Below are positions 4,907 through 43,822 of a stretch of DNA of 45,821 nt, piece after piece. The notes beneath the pieces are model-generated. The model saw only the letters and a list, made by a program, of their open reading frames with translations, was not told where the DNA came from and ran no database searches. The position numbers and the translations under genes are program-made. Numbering within the stretch: the first letter of the stretch is position 1; every line of letters begins with the position of its first letter. Source of the DNA: Gemmatimonadota bacterium. Its GTDB lineage: Bacteria > Latescibacterota > UBA2968. The stretch lies in assembly GCA_009838845.1 (NCBI GenBank), contig VXRD01000164.1, positions 1-45,821 on the forward strand, in the 5' to 3' direction.

Positions 4907-6071
4907 ACCCCACCCGCTCTGCGCCATTGACCGCTGAACAAACGTAAATCTCAGGCGTCAAACCAGTTGTCCTGGGATACCGCTCATTTATCGCATCTGT
5001 CAGGGCTGGCACAGCATCCCGGTCAACAATATTTACAGTACACCCCCCAAACCCAGCGCCAGTCATCCGTGCGCCGAGCACTCCTGGCACATTCAGGGCA
5101 ATTTCCACCAGCAGATCAAGTTCATCTCCACTCACCTCGTAATCATCTCGCAAACTCTCGTGGGATGCGACCATCAACTGTCCAAATCCCGACAAATCCC
5201 CTTTCTTGAGCAATGCAACCGCCCGCTGCGTGCGTTCATTTTCCGTTATCACATGGCGGCACCGTTTCAAGACCATCTCCGACAACACACCACCGTAAAC
5301 ATCCAGCATCTCCATCGACACATCACGCAATGCTTGTATATCCGTCCCCATCGCCCGTGCGAGAAGCGAAACCCCACTTTCACACGCAGATCGCCGATTA
5401 TTATACGCCGAATCCGTCAGCCCGCGCGTCACGCCCGAGTTGCAAATCACAATCTGCACATCATCGCCAAAAAGAGGGACAAGTTCAAACGAGAGATCGC
5501 GGCAATCGAGAAACAGCGCGTGACCTGCCCGGCCATTTGCCGAGATAAACTGATCCATGATCCCGCAATTAACACCCACAAAATGATTCTCTGCACGCTG
5601 TCCCAAAAGAGCCAGATCAGATCCACTTATTTCAATGCGGTTTAACACAACCATCCCCTTCCCCACCGCCATCTCCACAGCAGCCGAACTGCTCAGTCCG
5701 GCTCCCATAGGCACGTTGCCCACAATCGCCGCATCAAAACCACACAGCGAATGCCCGAGCTTTTGAAACTCGCGCACCACTCCCTTTGGATAATCCGCCC
5801 AATTGCCCTGTGCCTCCAATACATCATCGACCCGGAACTCAGTCACCTCTTCGTGCATTGCCGAGTAAATCCGCACCCGCGAATCAATTCTCGACCGTGC
5901 AGCAACAACCACCCAACGGTCAATCGCGGCGGGAAACACAAAGCCCTCATTGTAATCCGTGTGTTCCCCAATCAAATTGACGCGCCCCGGTGCCTGCACG
6001 ACGACATCCGCTTTTCCCTCAAAAACCGATACAAAAACGTCTCGCGCCTGTGTGATAATAGGATGCACCAT
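4905..6071 (-). CDS. galK: galactokinase
   Basis: This is a 388-residue GHMP kinase, the usual length for GalK, which phosphorylates galactose to galactose-1-phosphate with ATP in the cytoplasm. The galactokinase signature 'GRVNLIGEHTDYN' is at 29-41. The ATP-binding motif 'PMGAGLSSSAA' is at 121-131. The catalytic Asp is in 'CGIMDQF' (D173), and the third GHMP motif 'MTGAGFGG' lies near the C-terminus. The ATG follows only 5 nt after the stop of the GalE-GalT gene, with GAGAAGGGG as ribosome site inside the upstream gene's end. The two genes are therefore co-transcribed and encode the three core Leloir activities. galM is not in the window. Confidence 0.96.
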   Translation of the reverse strand: MVHPIITQARDVFVSVFEGKADVVVQAPGRVNLIGEHTDYNEGFVFPAAIDRWVVVAARSRIDSRVRIYSAMHEEVTEFRVDDVLEAQGNWADYPKGVVREFQKLGHSLCGFDAAIVGNVPMGAGLSSSAAVEMAVGKGMVVLNRIEISGSDLALLGQRAENHFVGVNCGIMDQFISANGRAGHALFLDCRDLSFELVPLFGDDVQIVICNSGVTRGLTDSAYNNRRSACESGVSLLARAMGTDIQALRDVSMEMLDVYGGVLSEMVLKRCRHVITENERTQRAVALLKKGDLSGFGQLMVASHESLRDDYEVSGDELDLLVEIALNVPGVLGARMTGAGFGGCTVNIVDRDAVPALTDAINERYPRTTGLTPEIYVCSAVNGAERVG

Positions 6072-26933: not shown

Positions 26934-26962
26934 AATATACCTGGTGTAATGATGGCTGTCAA
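26934..26962 (-). promoter_or_regulatory. str-operon promoter overlapping the rpoC stop codon
   Basis: On the minus strand TTGACA (26962-26957), a 17-bp spacer and TATATT (26939-26934). The TGA stop of rpoC (26961-26959) is part of the -35 box. Transcription would start near 26927, leaving a short leader with AAGGAGG before rpsL. Confidence 0.7.
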
Positions 26963-29900
26963 GCATTAATTGGAGGTAAACCAATGCTTTCCGTGCTCTC
27001 TTCTGCGAGAGCTTCAAAAACCTGCGATTCTTCCACCACATCTGTATCCAAATCGCGGTACTTCAAAGCACCTGTACCGGCGGGAATGAGGTGTCCGATG
27101 ATCACATTTTCCTTTAGTCCCAATAGCGTGTCAACCTTGCCCTGTACTGCTGCTTCGGTAAGCACTCGGGTAGTTTCCTGGAAAGACGCTGCTGAAATGA
27201 AACTCTCGGTCAAAAGAGAGGCTCGGGTAATCCCCAACAAGACGGGATTGTGAGTTGCGGGATCGCCTCCTTCAACAAGAACCTTATCATTTTCATCGAG
27301 GAAACGGAATCGGTCAACGAGTTCGTCTTCGAGAAAATTGGTATCTCCAGGATCTGTCACCTGTACTTTCTGCAACATCTGCCGGACGATGGTTTCAATA
27401 TGCTTGTCATTGATTTTCACACCCTGGAGCCGATAAACCTGCTGAATTTCATCGACGAGATACTCCTGAACTTTTCGATCTCCCAAAATAGCCAGAATGT
27501 CGTGTGGATTTACCGACCCCTCAGACAGGCGGTCACCCGCGGTTACGCGATCACCTTCTTGTACGCGCAGATGCCGTCCGTAGGGAATGGTATATTTTTT
27601 TTCTTCACCCTCATCAGCCGTAACCAGGACAACTCGAGAGCCTCTCACCATGCGACCAAAGCTCACCGAGCCGTTGATTTCGGTAACCACTGAAGCCTCT
27701 TTGGGGCGACGCGCCTCAAAAAGCTCAGCTACACGCGGCAAACCACCTGTAATATCTCGTGTTTTGCTGCGCTCACGCGAAATTTTAGCCAGCGTATCAC
27801 CATCTGCTACTTGGTCGCCATCGCGCACCACCAGTCGCGCTCCCAGAGGAATGATATAATGGCCCAGTTCTTCGCCATCTGCATCGATAACCTTAATGTG
27901 GGGCGATAAGGTGCGGTCTCGGTGCTCAATCACGACCAGTCCGGCAATGCTGGTGGTTTCATCAATTTCTTCGCGATATGTCACTCCTTCTACGAGGTCC
28001 CCAAACTGAACTTTACCAGCTTTGGGCGATACGATCACATTATTATACGGGTCCCATTCGTAGAGTGCCTGGTCCTCTTCCACATCTTGTCCTTCCTCCA
28101 CTCGCAACACAGCTCCATGCGGCACGTGGTAGTGCCCTCCCCTTACACGACCCTGATCATCTTGCACTTCGATCTCGCCATTCCGACCGACCACAACCCA
28201 TGAATCTTCATCGCGCTGCACAAACTCGAGATGTTTAAAGATGACTTTTCCCGCACGTTTTGCACCAATCTCGGCCTGCTCGGCAATGCGACTGGAAGTG
28301 CCTCCAATATGAAAGGTGCGCAATGTCAACTGTGTTCCGGGTTCGCCCACACTCTGCGCAGCAATAACACCCACGGCCTCTCCAATATCAACGGGTAGTC
28401 CGGTGGCGGGGTTGCGGCCATAACAGGCCATACAGACCCCTCGTCGAGTTTCACACGTCAACACGGACCGCACCCAGACGCCTTCAATACCCGCATCGGC
28501 AATTTTGTCGGCCAATTCTTCATTTAATAAAACGCCTGCGGCAACAATGCGTTCACCCGTAATGGGATCTTCGACATCTTCCAGTACTGTGCGTCCTACA
28601 ATGCGATCAGATAGCGATTCAACAACTTCTTCGCCTTCCTTCAGGGCTTCCATTTCAATGCCCAATATCGTTCCGCAATCGGCTTCAGAAATAACCACAT
28701 CTTGCGATACATCCACCATGCGACGCGTCAAGTAGCCCGCTTCAGCGGTCTTCAAGGCCGTATCGGCCAGCCCCTTGCGACTGCCGTGCGTCGAAATAAA
28801 ATACTCAAGCACGGTCAGACCTTCTTTAAGTGACGAAATAATAGGTGTTTCAATAATTTCGCCAATCGCTCCCGTCAATTTCTTTTGCGGTTTATTCATC
28901 AGCCCGCGCATACCACCGAGTTGCTTGATCTGATCGTCGTTTCCTCGTGCGCCCGAATCCTTCATAATCCAGATTGAATTGAAGCCTTCTTCGGCTTTTT
29001 CAAATGCACCAATCATGGCCTGGGCAATGTGATTGGTCGTATGCTGCCATACATCAATCACTTTGTTGTAGCGTTCGCCCTCGGTAATAGCCCCGATCGC
29101 GTGTTGTTCAATAATTTTTTCGACTTCGCCCATAGCATCGGTAATCAATTCTTCCTTTTCGGGGGGTACGACCACATCGCTCACCGCAATCGAAATACCC
29201 GACTGCGTCGCATAATCGTATCCCAACTGCTTCAATCCATCGAGAAAATCTGTCGTAATGCGGTTGCCATTCCGACTGTGGACTTCAGAAGAAACTTTGC
29301 GGATACCTTTGTCATCGATCAATTCATTGATAAAGGGCATTGTTTCGGGCATAATTTCGTTAAAAATGACGCGCCCAACCGTAGTCGTCAAAAGCTTACC
29401 ATCTATGCGAACGCGCACGGCTTCATGCAGGTCAATGCGTTCAAAATCATACGCCATGCGAGCTTCATTGGTACTGCTAAAGGTTTTGAGATTCTCTTCC
29501 TTGCCGTGAACAATTTTTGTCAGATAATAAAGGCCTAAAGCTATTTCCTGGGGTTTATCGACCACAACAGGCGATCCATCGGCGGGTTTGAGCAAATTGT
29601 TTGACGACAGCATCAACACCCGCGCTTCAATCTGGGCCTCAAAAGAAAGCGGCAGGTGTACGGCCATCTGATCACCGTCGAAATCGGCATTAAATGCCGC
29701 ACAGACCAGCGGATGAATGCGAATGGCTTTGCCTTCTACGAGCACGGGTAAAAACGCCTGAATGCCCAGGCGATGCAATGTTGGGGCGCGATTGAGCAAA
29801 ACGCAGTGATCCTGGATAATTTCTTCGAGAATATCCCATACTTCAACGCGCTCGCGTTCGACTAATTTCTTCGCACTTTTAACGGTTTGGACGAGGCCCT

Positions 29901-31050
29901 TTTCTTCGAGCCGTCGAATAATAAATGGCTTGAATAATTCCAGAGCCATATGTTTGGGTAGCCCGCATTGATAAAGCCTCAAATGAGGATCTACCACAAT
30001 CACAGAACGACCCGAATAATCGACGCGTTTACCCAAAAGATTCTGGCGGAATCGCCCCTGTTTACCCTTGAGTAGATCGGAAAGCGACTTGAGGGATCGG
30101 TTGCCATCACCGCGAACAGCACGAGACCGACGGCCATTGTCAAACAGAGCGTCTACAGCCTCTTGGAGCATGCGTTTTTCATTGCGTAAAATGACTTCGG
30201 GTGCTTTGATTTCAATCAGTTTTTTGAGCCGATTATTTCTATTGATCACGCGGCGATACAAATCATTGAGATCCGAAGTTGCAAACCGCCCGCCCTCTAA
30301 GGGTACAAGAGGACGCAAGTCGGGCGGGATGACGGGAATTACATCGAGAATCATCCAATCGGGCTGATTATCCGATTGGCGGAACGCCTCGACGACCTTG
30401 AGGCGTTTGAGTGCCTCCTGTTTGCGCTGCACCGAAGTCTCGAAACGAGCTTGCGTTCGCAGTTCAGCAGACAAGTCCTCAATATCGATTGCAGACAGCA
30501 GTTTTTTGATAGCGCCAGCCCCCATATCGACATCAAATGAATACCCCTCGTCTTCGAGATCAATCACCTCATCTTCAGTGAGCAAATCCTTGAATTTGAG
30601 ATCGGGAGCATCACCGGGATCTAACACCACATACGATTCGTAGTAAATGATCCGCTCGAGATTGCGAACGGAAAGATTGAGCAAATACCCCATGCGAGAT
30701 GGGAGCGACTTAAAAAACCAGATATGTGTCACTGGAACCGCCAATTCGATGTGTCCCAGCCGCTCTCGTCTGACCTTTGATTGGGTCACTTCTACCCCAC
30801 ACCGGTCACACACTACACCCCGATATCGAATGCGCTTGTATTTACCGCAATGGCACTCCCAGTCTTTGACAGGCCCAAAAATGCATTCGCAAAATAATCC
30901 GTCGCGCTCGGGCTTAAAAGACCGATAATTGATAGTTTCGGGTTTGGTAACCTCGCCGCGCGACCACCCTCGGATGGTATCTGGCGAAGCCAGTTGAATA
31001 CGAATAGAATTAAAATCTAAGGGTTGATTGGCAAAATTGGTATCGGCCAC
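26959..31050 (-). CDS. rpoC: DNA-directed RNA polymerase beta' subunit (GTG start)
   Basis: This is a 1363-residue beta' subunit. The N-terminal zinc ribbon is C66, C68, C81, C84. The catalytic Mg-binding loop 'NADFDGDQ' is at 454-461. The bridge-helix/trigger-loop region and the second zinc site ('[17 protein letters not shown]') are present, followed by the usual C-terminal segment. The start is GTG at 31050 with a G-rich ribosome site. It lies 30 bp after rpoB and is followed directly by rpsL, so the rpoBC and str operons are contiguous here. Confidence 0.98.
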
Positions 31051-31080
31051 GAGAGAACCCCCTTTTCAAGTCTTATGTCG

Positions 31081-34000
31081 TCAGTCAATCTGCGCGTTTT
31101 CAAGTACCACGTCCAAACACAGGCTTTGCAATTCTTTGACCAGAACATTAAATGATTCTGGCACACCGGGTTCGGGTGGATTTTCTCCCTTCACAATGGT
31201 CTCGTAAATTTTGGATCTGCCTGCCACATCGTCGGATTTGACAGTAAGCATTTCCTGTAACATGTGTGCAGCACCATAAGCTTCGAGTGCCCAAACTTCC
31301 ATTTCTCCAAAGCGCTGTCCGCCAAACTGGGCTTTGCCGCCCAAAGGTTGCTGCGTGACCAGTGAATAGGGTCCGATTGAACGCGCGTGAATCTTATCGC
31401 TAACCAGATGCGATAGTTTCAACATATAAATGATACCGACCATCACTTCTTTATCAAACGGTTCCCCTGTTTTGCCATCGTAAAGGAGCGTTTTTCCGTT
31501 TTCGGGCAAATCAGCTTTTCGCAACATACCCTGGACATCGTCCATGCTCGCGCCATCAAACACAGGAGTCGCAAAGTGGAGATCCAGTTTGTGGGCTGCC
31601 CAACCCAAATGGGTTTCGAGGATTTGGCCAAGATTCATGCGAGAGGGTACACCGAGCGGATTCAAAACCAGATCAATGGGCGTGCCATCGGGCAAATAGG
31701 GCATATCTTCTTCGGGCACAATAATCGAAATTACACCCTTATTGCCGTGCCTACCGGCCATTTTATCCCCTACCATCAGCTTTCTTTTGCGAGCGACATA
31801 CACCTTGACCAGTTGCACAATGCCCGGCGGAAGTTCATCTCCGCGCGCGATTTTTTCAAGCTCTCGCTCGAGTTCTTCTTCCGCCTGCTGCATCAAGTGG
31901 TCGGCCAGTTCAATCAGTCGATCCACCTTTTGGCTTGTCGCTGGACTATCACACCAATCTCCATCGGGTTTCACTGTGCCCAGGTCAAATTTTTCCAGCG
32001 ATCTTTCATTCAACGCCGTGCCAGCTTTTACAACTACCGTACTATCTTCATCGCGCAAGGTATTGACTCTGCGGTTTTTGAGAAGAGCTAAAACCTGCTG
32101 ATCCCGGCTCTGTTTTAATGACTCAATCTTAGAGGCAATGCGTTTTTGGGCAACTCCGGTCTTTTCTTTATCTTCATTTCGCGTCTTTTCATCGCGCTCT
32201 TTGCGAGAAAAAACTTTGCGATCCATGACTACGCCATCCATTCCTGGAGGAGCTTTAAGCGATGCGTCGCGCACATCGCCAGCCTTCTCGCCAAAAATCG
32301 CGCGTAACAAACGCTCTTCAGGTGACAATTCAGTTTCGCCCTTCGGGGTCACCTTCCCAACGAGAATATCGCCCTGATTGACCTCTGCTCCCACGCGAAT
32401 GATGCCGTGCTCATCCAGATTGCGAACAGCTTGCTCACTAACGTTGGGAATTTCACGCGTGATTTCTTCTGTGCCGCGTTTGGTATCGCGAACCTGAAGC
32501 TCAAATTCTTCAATGCTAATTGAAGTAAAAATATCCTTTTTAATGAGCCGCTCAGAAACAATGATGGCATCTTCGAAGTTATACCCATGCCACGACATAA
32601 ACGCCACGAGCACATTGGCACCGAGCGCGAGATCTCCCCTGTCTGTGGCACAACCATCGGCCAATAACTGACCGTTTTCAACTTTATCACCAACTTGTAC
32701 GGCCGGACGCTGGTTAATACAAAAATCTTGATTGGATCGCTTGAATTTGGTCAGATCGTAAATGTCCTCATCAGACAGCGAAATGGTTTCAATACTGCGA
32801 CCCTTTCGGCGCTTAACGACAATTTTGTCGGCACTGACATACGTCACAACACCGGCATTTTTCGCAATAATGACAGCTTTTGAATCAACGGCAACTTTGC
32901 GTTCGAGACCCGTTCCAACACGCGGGGCATCCGTAATTAAGAGAGGCACACCTTGCCGCTGCATATTGGACCCCATCAACGCGCGGTTGGCCTCATCGTG
33001 CTCGAGAAAAGGAATAAGTCCGGCGGCAGCACTCACAAGCTGGAAGGGTGAAACATCCATATAGTCAATCGCATCGGGATCGACCACAGGAAAATCGCCT
33101 CGCCGCCTCGCCTGCACGACATTATTTTCAAATTCGCCCTTGTCATCAAGCGCTAGATTGGCCTGTGCAATGGTATGGCGATCTTCTTCATCGGCGGGCA
33201 AATATGCAATATCCTGTGAAACTTTGCCACTTTTGACCTTCCGATAGGGCGTCTCGAGAAAGCCGAAGGGATTGACCTTGGCATAAGTTGCCACAGACAC
33301 AATCAGGCCGATATTAGGGCCTTCGGGCGTTTCGATGGGACAAATGCGGCCGTAGTGCGTGTGATGCACATCGCGCACCTCAAACCCCGCCCGGTCGCGC
33401 GTTAATCCCCCCGGTCCCAATGCCGATAAACGGCGTTTGTGGGTCAATTCGTCAAGCGGATTGATTTGCTGTAAAAACTGCGACAATTGGCTACTGCCAA
33501 AAAAGGCCTGAACCACAGTAGATACAGTCCGTGCGTTGACCAGATCGTGGGGAGTCAGTTGCTCGGAATCGCGCAAACTCATGCGCTCTCTAATCGTGCG
33601 CGCCATGCGCGCCAAACCAATACTAAATTGCTTGGAGAGCAACTCGCCTACAGAGCGCACCCGCCGATTGCCCAAATGATCGATATCATCGGTAAATCCC
33701 TCCCCCATAGCCAAGATAAGTAGATAGTCAATGACTTTAATAAAGTCATCAATACACAGCATGGTGAAGTCGAGCGGAATATTATCGACCATATCCAGAC
33801 GCTGGTTAATGCGATAGCGCCCGACAGTACCCAGATTATAACGCCTGGGACTGAAAAAATTTCGCTCGAGCAATCCGCGCGCAGTTTCAATATTGGGAGG
33901 ATCGCCGGGACGCAGCAGGCTATAAATCCGCGAGAGTGCTTCTTCCTCATTGTCACACGGATCCTTGTCCAGCGTATTAGTAATAATCCCACCGTCGTTT

Positions 34001-34854
34001 TCGGGATCGATATCCAACACTGTGATTTTGACGACCCCATTTTCCTTAAGGGCTAAGAGATGCTCCTCCATCAACGTGGTATATGCTTCGACAATTACTT
34101 CTCCCGTCTTTTTATTTACCACATCTTCGGTAACAATGTGATCGACGAGTTCTTCAGAAACTTTGACGGTGGTATCACCGTGAAAAATGCCCAGAATTTC
34201 CTCGGACTTGTCAAATCCCAAAGCTCTCAACAAAGTCGTGACCGGCAGTTTGCGTTTGCGGTCGATATGAACGTACATAATATCGTTGATATCGAGACTA
34301 AATTCGAGCCAAGCTCCGTTATCGGGAATGATTCTGGCGGAAAATAAACGCTTGCCATTTGGATGAATAGCATCGTCAAAAAATACGCCAGGAGATCTGT
34401 GTAATTGGCTCACGATCACGCGTTCTGAACCGTTGATGACAAATGTACCTTCATCAGTCATCAACGGCAATTCGCCTAAGAACACCGTCTGCTCAACGAT
34501 ATCTTTAACGCGAAATTCGCCATTTCCCTGCTTTTCACGAGAAATCAGACGAAGCGTTGAACGCAAAGGCACGGCATAAGTCGTACCGCGTTCGAGACAT
34601 TCTTGCACATCGTATTTGGGAGTTCCAACGGAATAATCGACAAACTCTAAAGAATAGAGATTGTGGGCGTCTGTGATCGGGAAGATACCGTGGAAGACCG
34701 CCTGGAGGCCTTGTTTCTCGCGTACTCCAGGCGGTACATCCTTCTGTAAAAACCAGTCATAAGAATCGAGCTGGATATCCAGCAGATTCGGCATTTCGAT
34801 TGCAGACGTGAGAGTTCCGTACGATTTCCGGTCAATAAATCCTCTATCTGCCAA
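31081..34854 (-). CDS. rpoB: DNA-directed RNA polymerase beta subunit (TTG start)
   Basis: This is a 1257-residue beta subunit. The rifampicin-pocket region runs from '[10 protein letters not shown]' to '[13 protein letters not shown]'. At the positions equal to E. coli 516, 518 and 522 it has Q, I and D instead of D, N and S, while H526 and S531 are kept. 'GRHGNKGV' and '[18 protein letters not shown]' are intact. The start is TTG 34854, with AGGAG 9 nt upstream; no ATG is better placed. It lies 73 bp after rplL, with no clear terminator in that gap. Confidence 0.97.
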
Positions 34855-37818: not shown

Positions 37819-37894
37819 TGGCAGGCCAGGCAGGACTTGAACCCGCAACCGTCGGTTTTGGAGACCGATGCTCTACCAGTTGAGCTACTGACCT
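37819..37894 (-). tRNA. tRNA-Trp (CCA)
   Basis: A complete cloverleaf of 76 nt. Acceptor AGGTCAG pairs with CTGGCCT, discriminator G, encoded CCA. The anticodon loop CTCCAAA gives CCA. It is directly upstream of secE, an arrangement common in several phyla, and was probably processed from the secE-nusG transcript. Confidence 0.97.
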
Positions 37895-37906
37895 ACCCAA
37901 AAACAA

Positions 37907-37982
<76 letters not shown>

Positions 37983-38007
37983 GTTGGGCAATCCCCACTT
38001 GAGGTTC

Positions 38008-38084
38008 TGGAGCGGGAAACGGGACTCGAACCCGCGACCCTCAGCTTGGAAGGCTGACGCTCTGGCCAACTGAGCTATTCCCGC
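38008..38084 (-). tRNA. tRNA-Gly (TCC)
   Basis: 77 nt. Acceptor GCGGGAA pairs with TTCCCGC, discriminator T, encoded CCA. The anticodon loop CTTCCAA reads TCC. It is the first tRNA after the promoter at 38161-38189. Confidence 0.97.
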
Positions 38085-40299: not shown

Positions 40300-41493
40300 T
40301 CAGACTGCGTCAAGTGCCTGTCCGACATCGACAATAATATCCTCGGTGTCTTCAATGCCTACGGCATAGCGCACCAACTCATCGGCAATGCCAATTGCCA
40401 ATCGGTCTTCGCGCGCCAATTCGTAATACGAAATAGATGCGGGATGCGAAACGAGACTCTCCACCCCTCCCAGACTGGCCCCGATACACGGAATTTTCAA
40501 GCGGTCAATAAAATCCAGCGTACCTGCCTCATTCGCATCTAAATCAAAACTTACCAGCCCACCAAATCCACGCATCTGCGCTTTGGCAACATCGTGGTGT
40601 GGGTGGCTTTCCAAACCTGGATAATACACGCGCTTTACCCGATCGTGATTTTCCAAAAACCGCGCCAACATCAGCGCTGTTTCATTTTGCTTACCCATTC
40701 GCAGTGGAAAAGTCTTGATCCCACGGATCAACAAATAAGCGCAATGAGGATCGATCACCCCTCCCAAAATACCTCGATAGTCTCGAATCGCACCAACAAG
40801 GGGCGCATTGCCCAGCACAGCACCAGCCATCAAATCGTTGTGCCCCCCCAAATATTTGGTCGCCGAATGAATGACCAGATCGACGCCAAATTCGAGCGGA
40901 CGCTGGTTTAAGGGCGTGGCAAATGTGCTGTCAATAATCGTCTTGACCCGATGCCTTCTTCCAATATCAACCAGTTTTTCCAGATCGATCACATTGAGAT
41001 GTGGATTGGTCGGAGATTCGGAAATAATTACCCGCGTGTTATCCCTGACTGCACCTTCTAATTCGGCGTAATCACCCGCGTGAACAAATGTGGTTTCAAT
41101 GCCAAATTTTCGCAACACCATCTGGCAAAATTGTGCGGTCTTGCGATAGCAGTCATCCATAATCACTGCATGGTTTCCGGTTGATAGCATGCCCAGTAGC
41201 GTAGTCGTCACAGCACTCATACCCGAAGAAAATAAAATAGCGGCCTCCGCGCCTTCCAATTCTGCGAGCTTGGATTCTGCGGCATGCTGTGTTGGATTGC
41301 CGTAGCGCCCATAGTCAATCTGTGGGTTTTGACCATCTACAAACGCTTTAACCGCATGCGTATCTTCAAATACATAAGTCGATGTCTGCGCAATGGGGAC
41401 CGTCAGAGATTTTCCCCAGTGTCCCCTTTCTTCACCTGCATGAACAGCCCGTGTCCCCGAACAGGGCGCGTGCGTCTCGCACTTTTCAGACAT
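40300..41493 (-). CDS. metB: cystathionine gamma-synthase-like PLP enzyme (trans-sulfuration family)
   Basis: This is a 397-residue enzyme of the Cys/Met metabolism PLP family. The PLP lysine is K213 in 'HSATKYLGGHND'. 'DYGRYGNPT' (60-68) and 'LFSSGMSAV' bind the cofactor phosphate, and 'ESPTNPHLNVID' is typical. Family members make cystathionine or homocysteine from an activated homoserine, or break cystathionine down. Sequence alone does not separate them. The SAM-II-like riboswitch upstream favours methionine synthesis. ATG 41493 has GGGAG 7 nt before it. A frame extension to 41526 runs into the leader terminator. It is followed by the DUF4013-like gene after one base. Confidence 0.88.
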   Translation of the reverse strand: MSEKCETHAPCSGTRAVHAGEERGHWGKSLTVPIAQTSTYVFEDTHAVKAFVDGQNPQIDYGRYGNPTQHAAESKLAELEGAEAAILFSSGMSAVTTTLLGMLSTGNHAVIMDDCYRKTAQFCQMVLRKFGIETTFVHAGDYAELEGAVRDNTRVIISESPTNPHLNVIDLEKLVDIGRRHRVKTIIDSTFATPLNQRPLEFGVDLVIHSATKYLGGHNDLMAGAVLGNAPLVGAIRDYRGILGGVIDPHCAYLLIRGIKTFPLRMGKQNETALMLARFLENHDRVKRVYYPGLESHPHHDVAKAQMRGFGGLVSFDLDANEAGTLDFIDRLKIPCIGASLGGVESLVSHPASISYYELAREDRLAIGIADELVRYAVGIEDTEDIIVDVGQALDAV

Positions 41494-41505
41494 GCGCCAT
41501 CTCCC

Positions 41506-41535
41506 AAAAAAAAAGCGGAGCCACAAAAGCCCCGC
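41506..41535 (-). terminator. second leader terminator of metB, U-run abutting the ribosome site
   Basis: On the minus strand GCGGGGC (41535-41529), loop TTTTGTG, GCTCCGC (41521-41515), then nine T (41514-41506) directly followed by GGGAG, the metB ribosome site. This is a complete intrinsic terminator just before the gene. Confidence 0.8.
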
Positions 41536-41544
41536 GCAGTACGC

Positions 41545-41572
41545 AAAAAACCGGACTAAAAAGCCCGGTTTT
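41545..41572 (-). terminator. first leader terminator of metB (riboswitch expression platform)
   Basis: On the minus strand AAAACCGG (41572-41565), loop GCTTTTTAGT, CCGGTTTT (41554-41547), with the T-run continuing to 41545. The loop contains CTTTTTAG, the exact complement of the aptamer tail CTAAAAAG (41588-41581), giving a simple antiterminator. Confidence 0.75.
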
Positions 41573-41580
41573 GGAAATAA

Positions 41581-41631
41581 CTTTTTAGCGACTTGTTTAA
41601 AGTGGCTGCAATATGCCGCAAATCACCACTC
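41581..41631 (-). promoter_or_regulatory. SAM-II-like riboswitch aptamer
   Basis: On the minus strand the element begins AGTGG, then TGATTT, a variable part, TTGCA, then CCACT, an A/T-rich joint, and GTCGCTAAAAAG. These match the conserved blocks of the SAM-II (SAM_alpha) class in order: P1, 'UGAUUU', 'UUGCA', P1', and the tail 'GCUAAAA'. P1 is AGTGG with CCACT. Loop GCGGC can pair with tail GTCGC to make the H-type pseudoknot (inferred). It starts about 13 nt after the predicted transcription start and controls a methionine-family PLP gene, as known examples do. Confidence 0.85.
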
Positions 41632-41650
41632 ACTATAGCTGTGTTTTGGG

Positions 41651-41679
41651 AATGTAAACAAAACCTCCAACCATGTCAA
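41651..41679 (-). promoter_or_regulatory. metB promoter immediately after the thrC stop
   Basis: On the minus strand TTGACA (41679-41674), a 17-bp spacer and TACATT (41656-41651). The -35 box begins at the base after the thrC TAG. The predicted start is near 41644, so the riboswitch controls metB and not thrC. Confidence 0.7.
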
Positions 41680-43041
41680 CTATCGGTTGGCTTCAATCCG
41701 ATCGAAAATCGCCTTTTTTACCGCATCGACTTCAGGAGGCAACACAACGGGTTCATTTTGGTAATGCGGGCCGACACCCCAGTCCTGTAACTGATCCCGA
41801 TGATACCCGAGCTTAAATTCGCTAAACTTCAACCCGTGAGCCGTTGAAATCACGATCACCCGATCGCTTTTCTGAATCACACCCCTTTCAACCAACTTGA
41901 ACAATGCTGCGAAAGCCACCCCGGTATGCGGGCAGGCAAACAAACCCGTGCGGTCGGCACGCGCAGCCGCATCGGCCAATTCCTCCTCGCTGGCTTGCTC
42001 CACGACACCACCAAATATTTTGAGCGTTTGAATCGCCTTTTCCCGACTCACTGGATTGCCGATCTGGATCGCACTCGCCAATGTCGGCTGTGCCTGAATC
42101 GGTTCAAAACTATCAAAATTCTTTTCAAAACTCTGGTAGAGCGGGTTTGCCCTATCGGCCTGGGCAACCGCAATGCGCGGCAACCGGTCAATGAGACCGA
42201 GGGCTTCCATTTCGAGAAACCCCTTACCAAGCGCACTCACATTGCCCAGATTTCCGCCGGGAATCACAACCCAATCGGGCACGTCCCAATCAAATTGTTG
42301 CACCAATTCAATGCTGATCGTTTTTTGTCCCTCTACCCGCAGTGAATTCATCGAATTGGCCAAATAAATATTCTCCTCGCGGCAAATCTCCTGCACGAGC
42401 CTCATACATCCATCAAAGTCCGTCTCCAAACTCAGCACCAGCGCACCATTGGCCAGGGGTTGCAAAAGTTGTGCGGTCGAGATTTTGTCCCTCGGCAAAA
42501 AGACCACCGATTGTATGCCCGCCGCCGCACAATACGCAGCCAATGCCGCCGAGGTGTCCCCAGTAGATGCACACGCAACCGCCGGAATACGCGCCCCCTC
42601 AAACAGCATCTGTTTCACCATGGATACCAGCACCGTCATGCCCAAATCTTTGAACGACCCCGTATGGCTGTTACCACATTGCTTAACCCACAAATCCTCA
42701 ACGCCAATTTCGCGCCCTAAACGCTCGGCCCAAAACAGATTGCTTCCCCCTTCGTACATCGACACCACATTGTCTTCGTGAACTACGGGGCAGACCAGTT
42801 CTTTTTTCCCCCACACCGAACTGCCATAAGGCCATTCTGTCGTCATATAGCGCTTATCAAACAACCCGCGCCAATAACTGCCCGACTTGCGTTTGAGCAC
42901 CTCCATATCGTGCGCCACTTCAAGCAATCCCCCGCACGTTGGGCATGCGTAAATCACATCCGTCAACGCATATCGCCCCTCGCACCCTCGAAAACACCGA
43001 AACCACGCATTATAAGTTGTATCGTCCATAATCACCGCCAT
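41680..43041 (-). CDS. thrC: threonine synthase
   Basis: This is a 453-residue PLP enzyme converting O-phosphohomoserine to threonine. The PLP lysine is K131 in '[12 protein letters not shown]'. The N-terminal four-cysteine ribbon (C16, C20, C33, C36) is typical of one group of threonine synthases. '[15 protein letters not shown]' and 'VIPGGNLGN' are cofactor-phosphate loops. ATG 43041 has GAGG about 12 nt upstream. The open frame reaches 43221 across batE but has no homology there. It follows batE by 13 bp, so it is likely co-transcribed with the Bat genes. Confidence 0.92.
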
Positions 43042-43054
43042 TATAGATGATTCC

Positions 43055-43822
43055 TCAAATTCTCTCCAACACCTGCGCCTCAATCCAGCCGCCGAGGCCC
43101 GAGCGCAGGCGCACCAACAACCATCCACCTTCAACGCGTTCAATCTCGACCTTCGTGCCCTCGTGAAGTGCGAACACCTGTAAAAAGTCGGGCCCTGGCC
43201 CGCTGCGGCCAATGGCCTCATCTACCAGAATGATAGCTTTGGGAATGCTGTGTTGATGCGCCTTAAACGCCAGCATAGCCGCACTGCCCAAAAGTCCGCC
43301 CACAAAAACCACCAGCAACCCACCCCATAGCAAACGACGGACCGGCACAAAAATCCAACATACCGCCACACCGCCTATTAAAAAAACAAACACACAAACC
43401 ATAACTGCCAGCGCATTGAGGGTAAAAAAAGCAAAAATCGCTTGCAAAATCCGCGTCAAAATATTGACTTCATCTTCGTTTTCTCGATCTATCTTCTGGG
43501 CATTGGCAAATTGCAAATTCGCCAGAACATCCCGATCGCCCGGCATCAAATTCAAAGCGCGTTCATAAGATAAAATCGCACGCCCGAGTTGCGCATTTTT
43601 AAAATACGCATTGCCCAGATTATAATACACCTCACCATTATTCAGCCCCTGGGCAATAACGCGCTCATAAGCCGAAATCGCCGCATCAAAATCCCCGGCG
43701 CGATAGTGTTCATTACCCCGATTGTACAGCGCGACAAGAGCTTCTGAGGCGAATACCGCATCTACGCCAAGTATCGCAACTGCGACAACGGGGTATAACA
43801 ACCGTACTATCACCGTCCTCAT
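43055..43822 (-). CDS. BatE-like TPR protein with C-terminal SH3-type domain
   Basis: This is a 255-residue protein. A hydrophobic N-terminus (signal or anchor) precedes two or three TPRs ('[20 protein letters not shown]', then '[14 protein letters not shown]'). Two membrane helices follow (about 140-190), and then an SH3-like tail containing '[19 protein letters not shown]'. This is the domain order of BatE, a partner of BatD in the aerotolerance operon found next to MoxR and VWA genes. ATG 43822 lies two bases after the batD stop (TAGTCATG), implying coupling. The function of Bat proteins is not settled. Confidence 0.8.

Follow-up and report, generated by a model that had tools for sequence, protein, structure and literature searches.

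As judged from its sequence, the element upstream of a metB/metZ-type gene in the window, the whole stretch of 45,821 nucleotides analysed here, is a genuine SAM-II riboswitch of an ordinary kind. The best overall explanation, with a probability of about 75%, is that it turns the gene off at plentiful SAM, by transcription termination; that the locus carries a SAM-II OFF-switch is very probable. The computational evidence covers the aptamer and its broad conservation, the gene, the terminators and an alternative pairing that recurs among lineages, and we infer SAM binding, a kinetic choice between structures and the direction of control. The antiterminator most likely consists of the conserved core GCTAAAAAG paired with the U-rich apical loop GGCTTTTTAGT of the downstream terminator.

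Identification of the aptamer

The original prediction had described a SAM-II-like element and proposed a search with the Rfam covariance model. When the whole window was compared with 4227 families using cmscan, positions 41639-41564 of the minus strand matched SAM_alpha/SAM-II (RF00521) over its full length (1-79), with 45.7 bits for a gathering score of 36 and an E value of 3.1e-7. Rfam detected four RNAs in the window, this aptamer and three tRNAs. The match is the only one to RF00521 in the 5.75 Mb genome, and none was found in 14 control genomes. No covariance match to the SAM-I S-box (RF00162) was found in the window.

All the expected SAM-II blocks are present on the minus strand between 41631 and 41581, in the order that had been predicted. 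Stem P1 (41600-41631) pairs GAGTGG (41631-41626) with CCACTT (41605-41600) and encloses a U-rich loop. It contains GATTT (41624-41620) and TTGC, and GTCGCTAAAAAG follows its 3' strand. The pseudoknot P2 (41579-41617) is formed by the 5' strand GGCAT..GC (41617-41613 and 41609-41608) and the 3' strand GC..AAGTT (41589-41588 and 41583-41579). The conserved core GCTAAAAAGTT, proposed below as the 5' arm of the antiterminator, occupies 41579-41589.

The structure was examined in an alignment of 17 copies, 15 from Latescibacterota and two from Rhizobiaceae. The SAM-II pairs are formed in 90% of the cells of the alignment (100% for P2a and 90% for P2b), and the inner five pairs of P1 are retained in 16-17 of the 17 copies. 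The covariation score of 0.186 is superior to those of all 500 shuffles (mean 0.108) and of all slid registers (maximum 0.068). Two compensatory exchanges were observed, A-U to C-G at an outer pair of P1 and G-C to A-U at one pair of P2b. The ligand-site blocks GATTT, TTGC and GCTAAA form invariant or near-invariant columns, and the 28 invariant positions cover ATTT, TTGC and GCTAAA. As the core of the aptamer is invariant for reasons of ligand binding, covariation is visible in the flanks only. P2b is weak in the window copy, consisting of a U-A, a C-G and two G-U pairs.

The regulated gene and its leader

The gene downstream of the aptamer (40300-41493, minus strand) was listed as a 408-aa frame starting with TTG. 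An ATG at 41493, located 7 nt after the Shine-Dalgarno sequence GGGAG (41501-41505), gives a protein of 397 aa. This protein matches PF01053, the PLP enzymes of Cys/Met metabolism, with an E value of 5e-132, in agreement with the methionine-pathway PLP gene that had been anticipated. The best NCBIfam models are PRK08249, for the cystathionine gamma-synthase family, and methionine gamma-lyase. As all scored below their equivalog cut-offs, "metB/metZ type" (cystathionine gamma-synthase / homocysteine-forming PLP enzyme family) is the most precise label that the data allow. The nearest relatives of the enzyme, with 95 and 67% identity, are both encoded in Candidatus Latescibacterota genomes. The relatives of the genome also belong to this phylum, and the host indeed lies outside Pseudomonadota, as had been suspected. 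Upstream, and also on the minus strand, lies thrC (41680-43221), encoding a threonine synthase that scores above the TIGR00260 cut-off.

Between thrC and the metB-type gene are found, in this order, a promoter, the aptamer, two terminators and the ribosome-binding site. The sigma-70-like promoter TTGACA-N17-TACATT (41651-41679, minus strand) matches 10 of 12 consensus positions. As the promoter scan by itself is not above chance (three sites seen for 5.2 expected from shuffled sequence), the call rests on conservation: in the relatives, most SAM-II copies are preceded by a TTGACA box and a -10-like box. By spacing from this promoter, transcription would start around position 41644, about 13 nt before P1, which is the distance given by the original prediction.

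The first intrinsic terminator (41547-41572, minus strand; -14.8 kcal/mol) has the form AAAACCGGGC-UUUUUA-GUCCGGUUUU, with a U tract at 41550-41545. Similar hairpins occupy the same place in the relatives. Its apical part (41555-41565) would be the 3' arm of the antiterminator. The second terminator (41506-41535, minus strand; -13.4 kcal/mol) reads GCGGGGC-loop-GCTCCGC followed by nine T, and its stem has eight pairs including six G-C.

A proposed core-to-loop antiterminator

The core (41589-41579) is complementary to the apex of terminator 1 (41565-41555) over 10-11 bp. A helix of this length at the terminator apex was found in seven of 15 lineage representatives; the duplex test gave none in the other eight, and there was zero enrichment of the pairing in three genomes (G027, G028 and G063). 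The pooled duplex energy was -200.2, compared with -163.5 (sd 7.8) for dinucleotide shuffles, none of 400 being as low; the corresponding z of -4.7 is not a strict probability, as the representatives are related to one another. The complementary extensions vary together, with AAAAAGTC/GACTTTTT in the copy L092 and AAAAAGCC/GGCTTTTT in L106. In many other lineages, an apex of the form GC-UUUUU(A/G)-G is kept although the hairpin has a different stem and lies closer to or farther from the aptamer. A generic terminator loop was considered as the source of the complementarity and rejected, since the genome has a single occurrence of the apex pattern GGNCTTTTTAGNCC, at this locus, versus three of the reversed control.

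When the nascent leader was folded up to position 41555, the antiterminator was the best structure (-20.5); with the leader extended to 41547, the terminator was best (-29.8). At equilibrium, the terminator is more stable by about 10 kcal/mol (-30.1 versus -20.2 kcal/mol), so that the choice would have to be kinetic. Without SAM, the core GCUAAAAAGUU would be free to pair with GGCUUUUUAGU as soon as the latter is transcribed. Terminator 1 would then have its apex engaged by the time its 3' strand emerges, and the polymerase would read through. With SAM, the core would be held in the P2 pseudoknot, preventing capture of the apex. Terminator 1, and then terminator 2 behind it, would form and transcription would end before the gene. 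This exact form of the antiterminator is somewhat favoured.

Alternative explanations

The element may instead be a SAM-II OFF-switch in which termination is set by the formation of P2 or by another fold, the core-loop complementarity being incidental. Several lineages do without the core-loop pairing, and in the rhizobial metZ leader it is the 3' strand of P2, GGCCGG, that is complementary to the arms of the terminator. The minimum-energy folds of the aptamer alone also use the 5' flank TAGTGA (41634-41629) paired with TCGCTA (41590-41585). That flank pairing, however, is conserved only in part of the genus and lost beyond it, and it was discarded. By contrast, the core-loop pairing is found again where terminators are located 16-79 nt away, and its loop pattern is unique in the genome. 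Incidental complementarity is unlikely, but it keeps an appreciable share of the probability.

A relative of SAM-II with altered specificity, for SAH or another SAM derivative for example, or a degenerate element that does not bind, is improbable. The covariance score does not reveal specificity, and the weakness of P2b in the window copy would fit such a reading. Against it, the strongly conserved SAM-II blocks are all intact, the leader is kept with its promoter and terminators, and the gene encodes a methionine-pathway enzyme. As for a chance resemblance, nothing was found in its favour and its likelihood is negligible; the E value of the RF00521 match and the conservation across families rule it out.

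Comparison with known systems

The window copy resembles the metA motif, the original SAM-II/SAM_alpha description (RF00521; Corbino et al. 2005, PMC1273637), in its blocks and in P1 and the pseudoknot P2, as well as in the promoter just before P1, the terminator between P2 and the gene, and the methionine gene downstream. It differs in the phylum of the host, in the short and G-U-rich P2b, and in an apparent antiterminator built from the conserved core and the loop of the terminator. In S. meliloti, the metZ SAM-II (PMC9373788; pSymB copy L112) is likewise followed by an intrinsic terminator. The metZ product, an O-succinylhomoserine sulfhydrylase, belongs to the same superfamily as the window enzyme but shares only 37% identity with it. 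The rhizobial leader opposes its P2 3' strand to the terminator arms, unlike the core-loop arrangement of the window, and from sequence comparison the Latescibacterota platform appears to be a variant that differs from the rhizobial metZ layout. Few studies have addressed how SAM-II affects gene expression (PMC9373788).

In the guanidine-IV riboswitch (PMC10907184), a pseudoknot-type contact to the terminal loop of the terminator also governs termination. There the ligand promotes the loop contact (ON), whereas in the window switch the ligand would be expected to block it (OFF), and both the aptamer and the ligand differ from those of SAM-II. SAM-I (S box, RF00162) precedes the same gene family in some Chloroflexota and Myxococcota, with an aptamer fold unrelated to that of SAM-II.

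Distribution of SAM-II

SAM-II has been found mainly in Alphaproteobacteria, with sporadic cases in gamma-proteobacteria and Bacteroidetes (PMC1273637, PMC2258182), and one survey read its narrow spread as evidence that the class emerged recently (PMC3766115). The phylum of the window was represented by 64 genomes, and RF00521 scored above the cut-off in 25 of them: all 15 of its own family and all six of the other family of the order (21/21), 1/1 and 3/25 in two further families of the class, and 0/17 elsewhere in the phylum. None of the 64 genomes has SAM-I. No paper on SAM-II in Latescibacterota was found in the literature searched, which was limited to open-licence papers, so that this absence is weak. 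Beyond the phylum, above-threshold copies were present in six of the 284 genomes in the phylum to which genome G106 belongs, Myxococcota in the NCBI labelling. In Tectimicrobiota (Entotheonella L121, and L119, L128 and L129), SAM-II-like copies stand directly before metB-type genes. These leaders have AGTGGATTGATTT, with two extra bases after P1, and score 21-31 bits, below the Rfam threshold; they may form a variant subclass.

Other arrangements were noticed in the course of the survey. Three genomes from three Latescibacterota families (L083 in G018, L103 in G057 and L106 in G026) have SAM-II directly before L-threonine 3-dehydrogenase genes (TIGR00692/PRK05396), a target of which no description was found in the literature searched. 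In L109 (G019:C12, around 1640-2040), SAM-II precedes a frame whose beginning resembles threonine dehydrogenase (MSDKMKAVRKRDAG) and whose continuation resembles a fragment of a cysteine synthase, which may reflect decay, rearrangement or an assembly error. The top-scoring SAM-II of the phylum (L082 in G040, 55.5 bits) precedes a gene for an AAA-type ATPase, an odd, non-methionine target. Two aptamers stand in tandem in L084/L107 (G063:C175:4777-4853 and 4942-5018), the first with a terminator and the second near a ribosome site; the 490-aa protein encoded downstream has no Pfam or NCBIfam match. Tandem SAM-II is already known from 44 cases (PMC9481103). The Myxococcota genome G106 also seems to have a tandem, as a second SAM-II-like aptamer was spotted by eye after the scored one (L118, around 1501-1760). 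In L131, L134 and L138, where the 3' part of SAM-II is AAGGAGCTAAAGCGATG, the aptamer overlaps or abuts the ribosome site and the start codon, an arrangement suggestive of direct control of translation.

Origin of the switch

The original prediction had considered either a wider range of SAM-II or a transfer. The wider range is supported relative to the surveys consulted; a transfer, recent or together with the gene, finds no support, because SAM-II is present throughout the order, the regulated enzymes form one Latescibacterota clade and the identity to rhizobial MetZ is low. A recent horizontal acquisition of element and gene together from Alphaproteobacteria, the best-known home of SAM-II (PMC1273637, PMC2258182), is very improbable and was rejected. 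In a quick version of the metB-family tree, the enzymes of the SAM-II genomes group with SH-aLRT 97, the Tectimicrobiota enzymes behind a SAM-II-like leader fall in a clade of their own, and rhizobial MetZ is very distant. The thrC-metB order is also found without SAM-II in Latescibacterota, Rokubacteria, Methylomirabilota and Binatia. With this synteny in relatives lacking the switch and 37% identity to the alphaproteobacterial enzyme, the gene did not come with the switch. When the SAM-II consensus was used to look for a phage or plasmid vehicle, the plasmids and megaplasmids recovered were all rhizobial, and the phages gave just two weak matches of 26 nt that carry no weight.

The frequency of SAM-II in the phylum and order, together with the absence of SAM-I from the 64 genomes, indicates that SAM-II is native to Latescibacterota and not a stray transfer. 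On this comparative evidence, it is probably best described as a long-standing resident of this order, in the thrC-metB gap. The gap measures 160-640 nt where SAM-II is present and, for the most part, 15-100 nt where it is absent. The simplest reading is that the thrC-metB pair is older than the switch, which would have been inserted later with its own promoter. The RNA itself, 79 nt long, may be an inheritance, may have arisen independently or may have passed between phyla in the distant past.

The order-wide presence in Latescibacterota, the Tectimicrobiota variants and the scattered copies in the Myxococcota group weaken the view of a recent emergence (PMC3766115). The gene family is preceded by SAM-I in some Chloroflexota and Myxococcota but by SAM-II in the window, two unrelated RNA sensors in the same regulatory position, and the recurring core-to-loop pairing offers a directly testable mechanism of termination. 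The interest of the finding is moderate, and lies in the establishment of SAM-II in an uncultured phylum, this SAM-I/SAM-II alternation and the core-to-loop antiterminator. A broader proposal is put forward tentatively, at slightly less than even odds: the Latescibacterota platform would be distinct in that the conserved ligand-site strand GCUAAAAAG doubles as the antiterminator strand, capturing the U5 apical loop of the terminator before the hairpin closes, one strand serving as pocket and switch, and SAM-II would be old and shared by several phyla (Latescibacterota, Tectimicrobiota, Myxococcota and Alphaproteobacteria), with a regulon including threonine dehydrogenase.

Elsewhere in the window, the minus strand at 26959-34854 has a pair of very long frames, of 1363 and 1257 aa, beside short ones, and the three tRNAs lie at 37822-38084. 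By their size and order, the frames look like rpoC and rpoB with a ribosomal-protein cluster.
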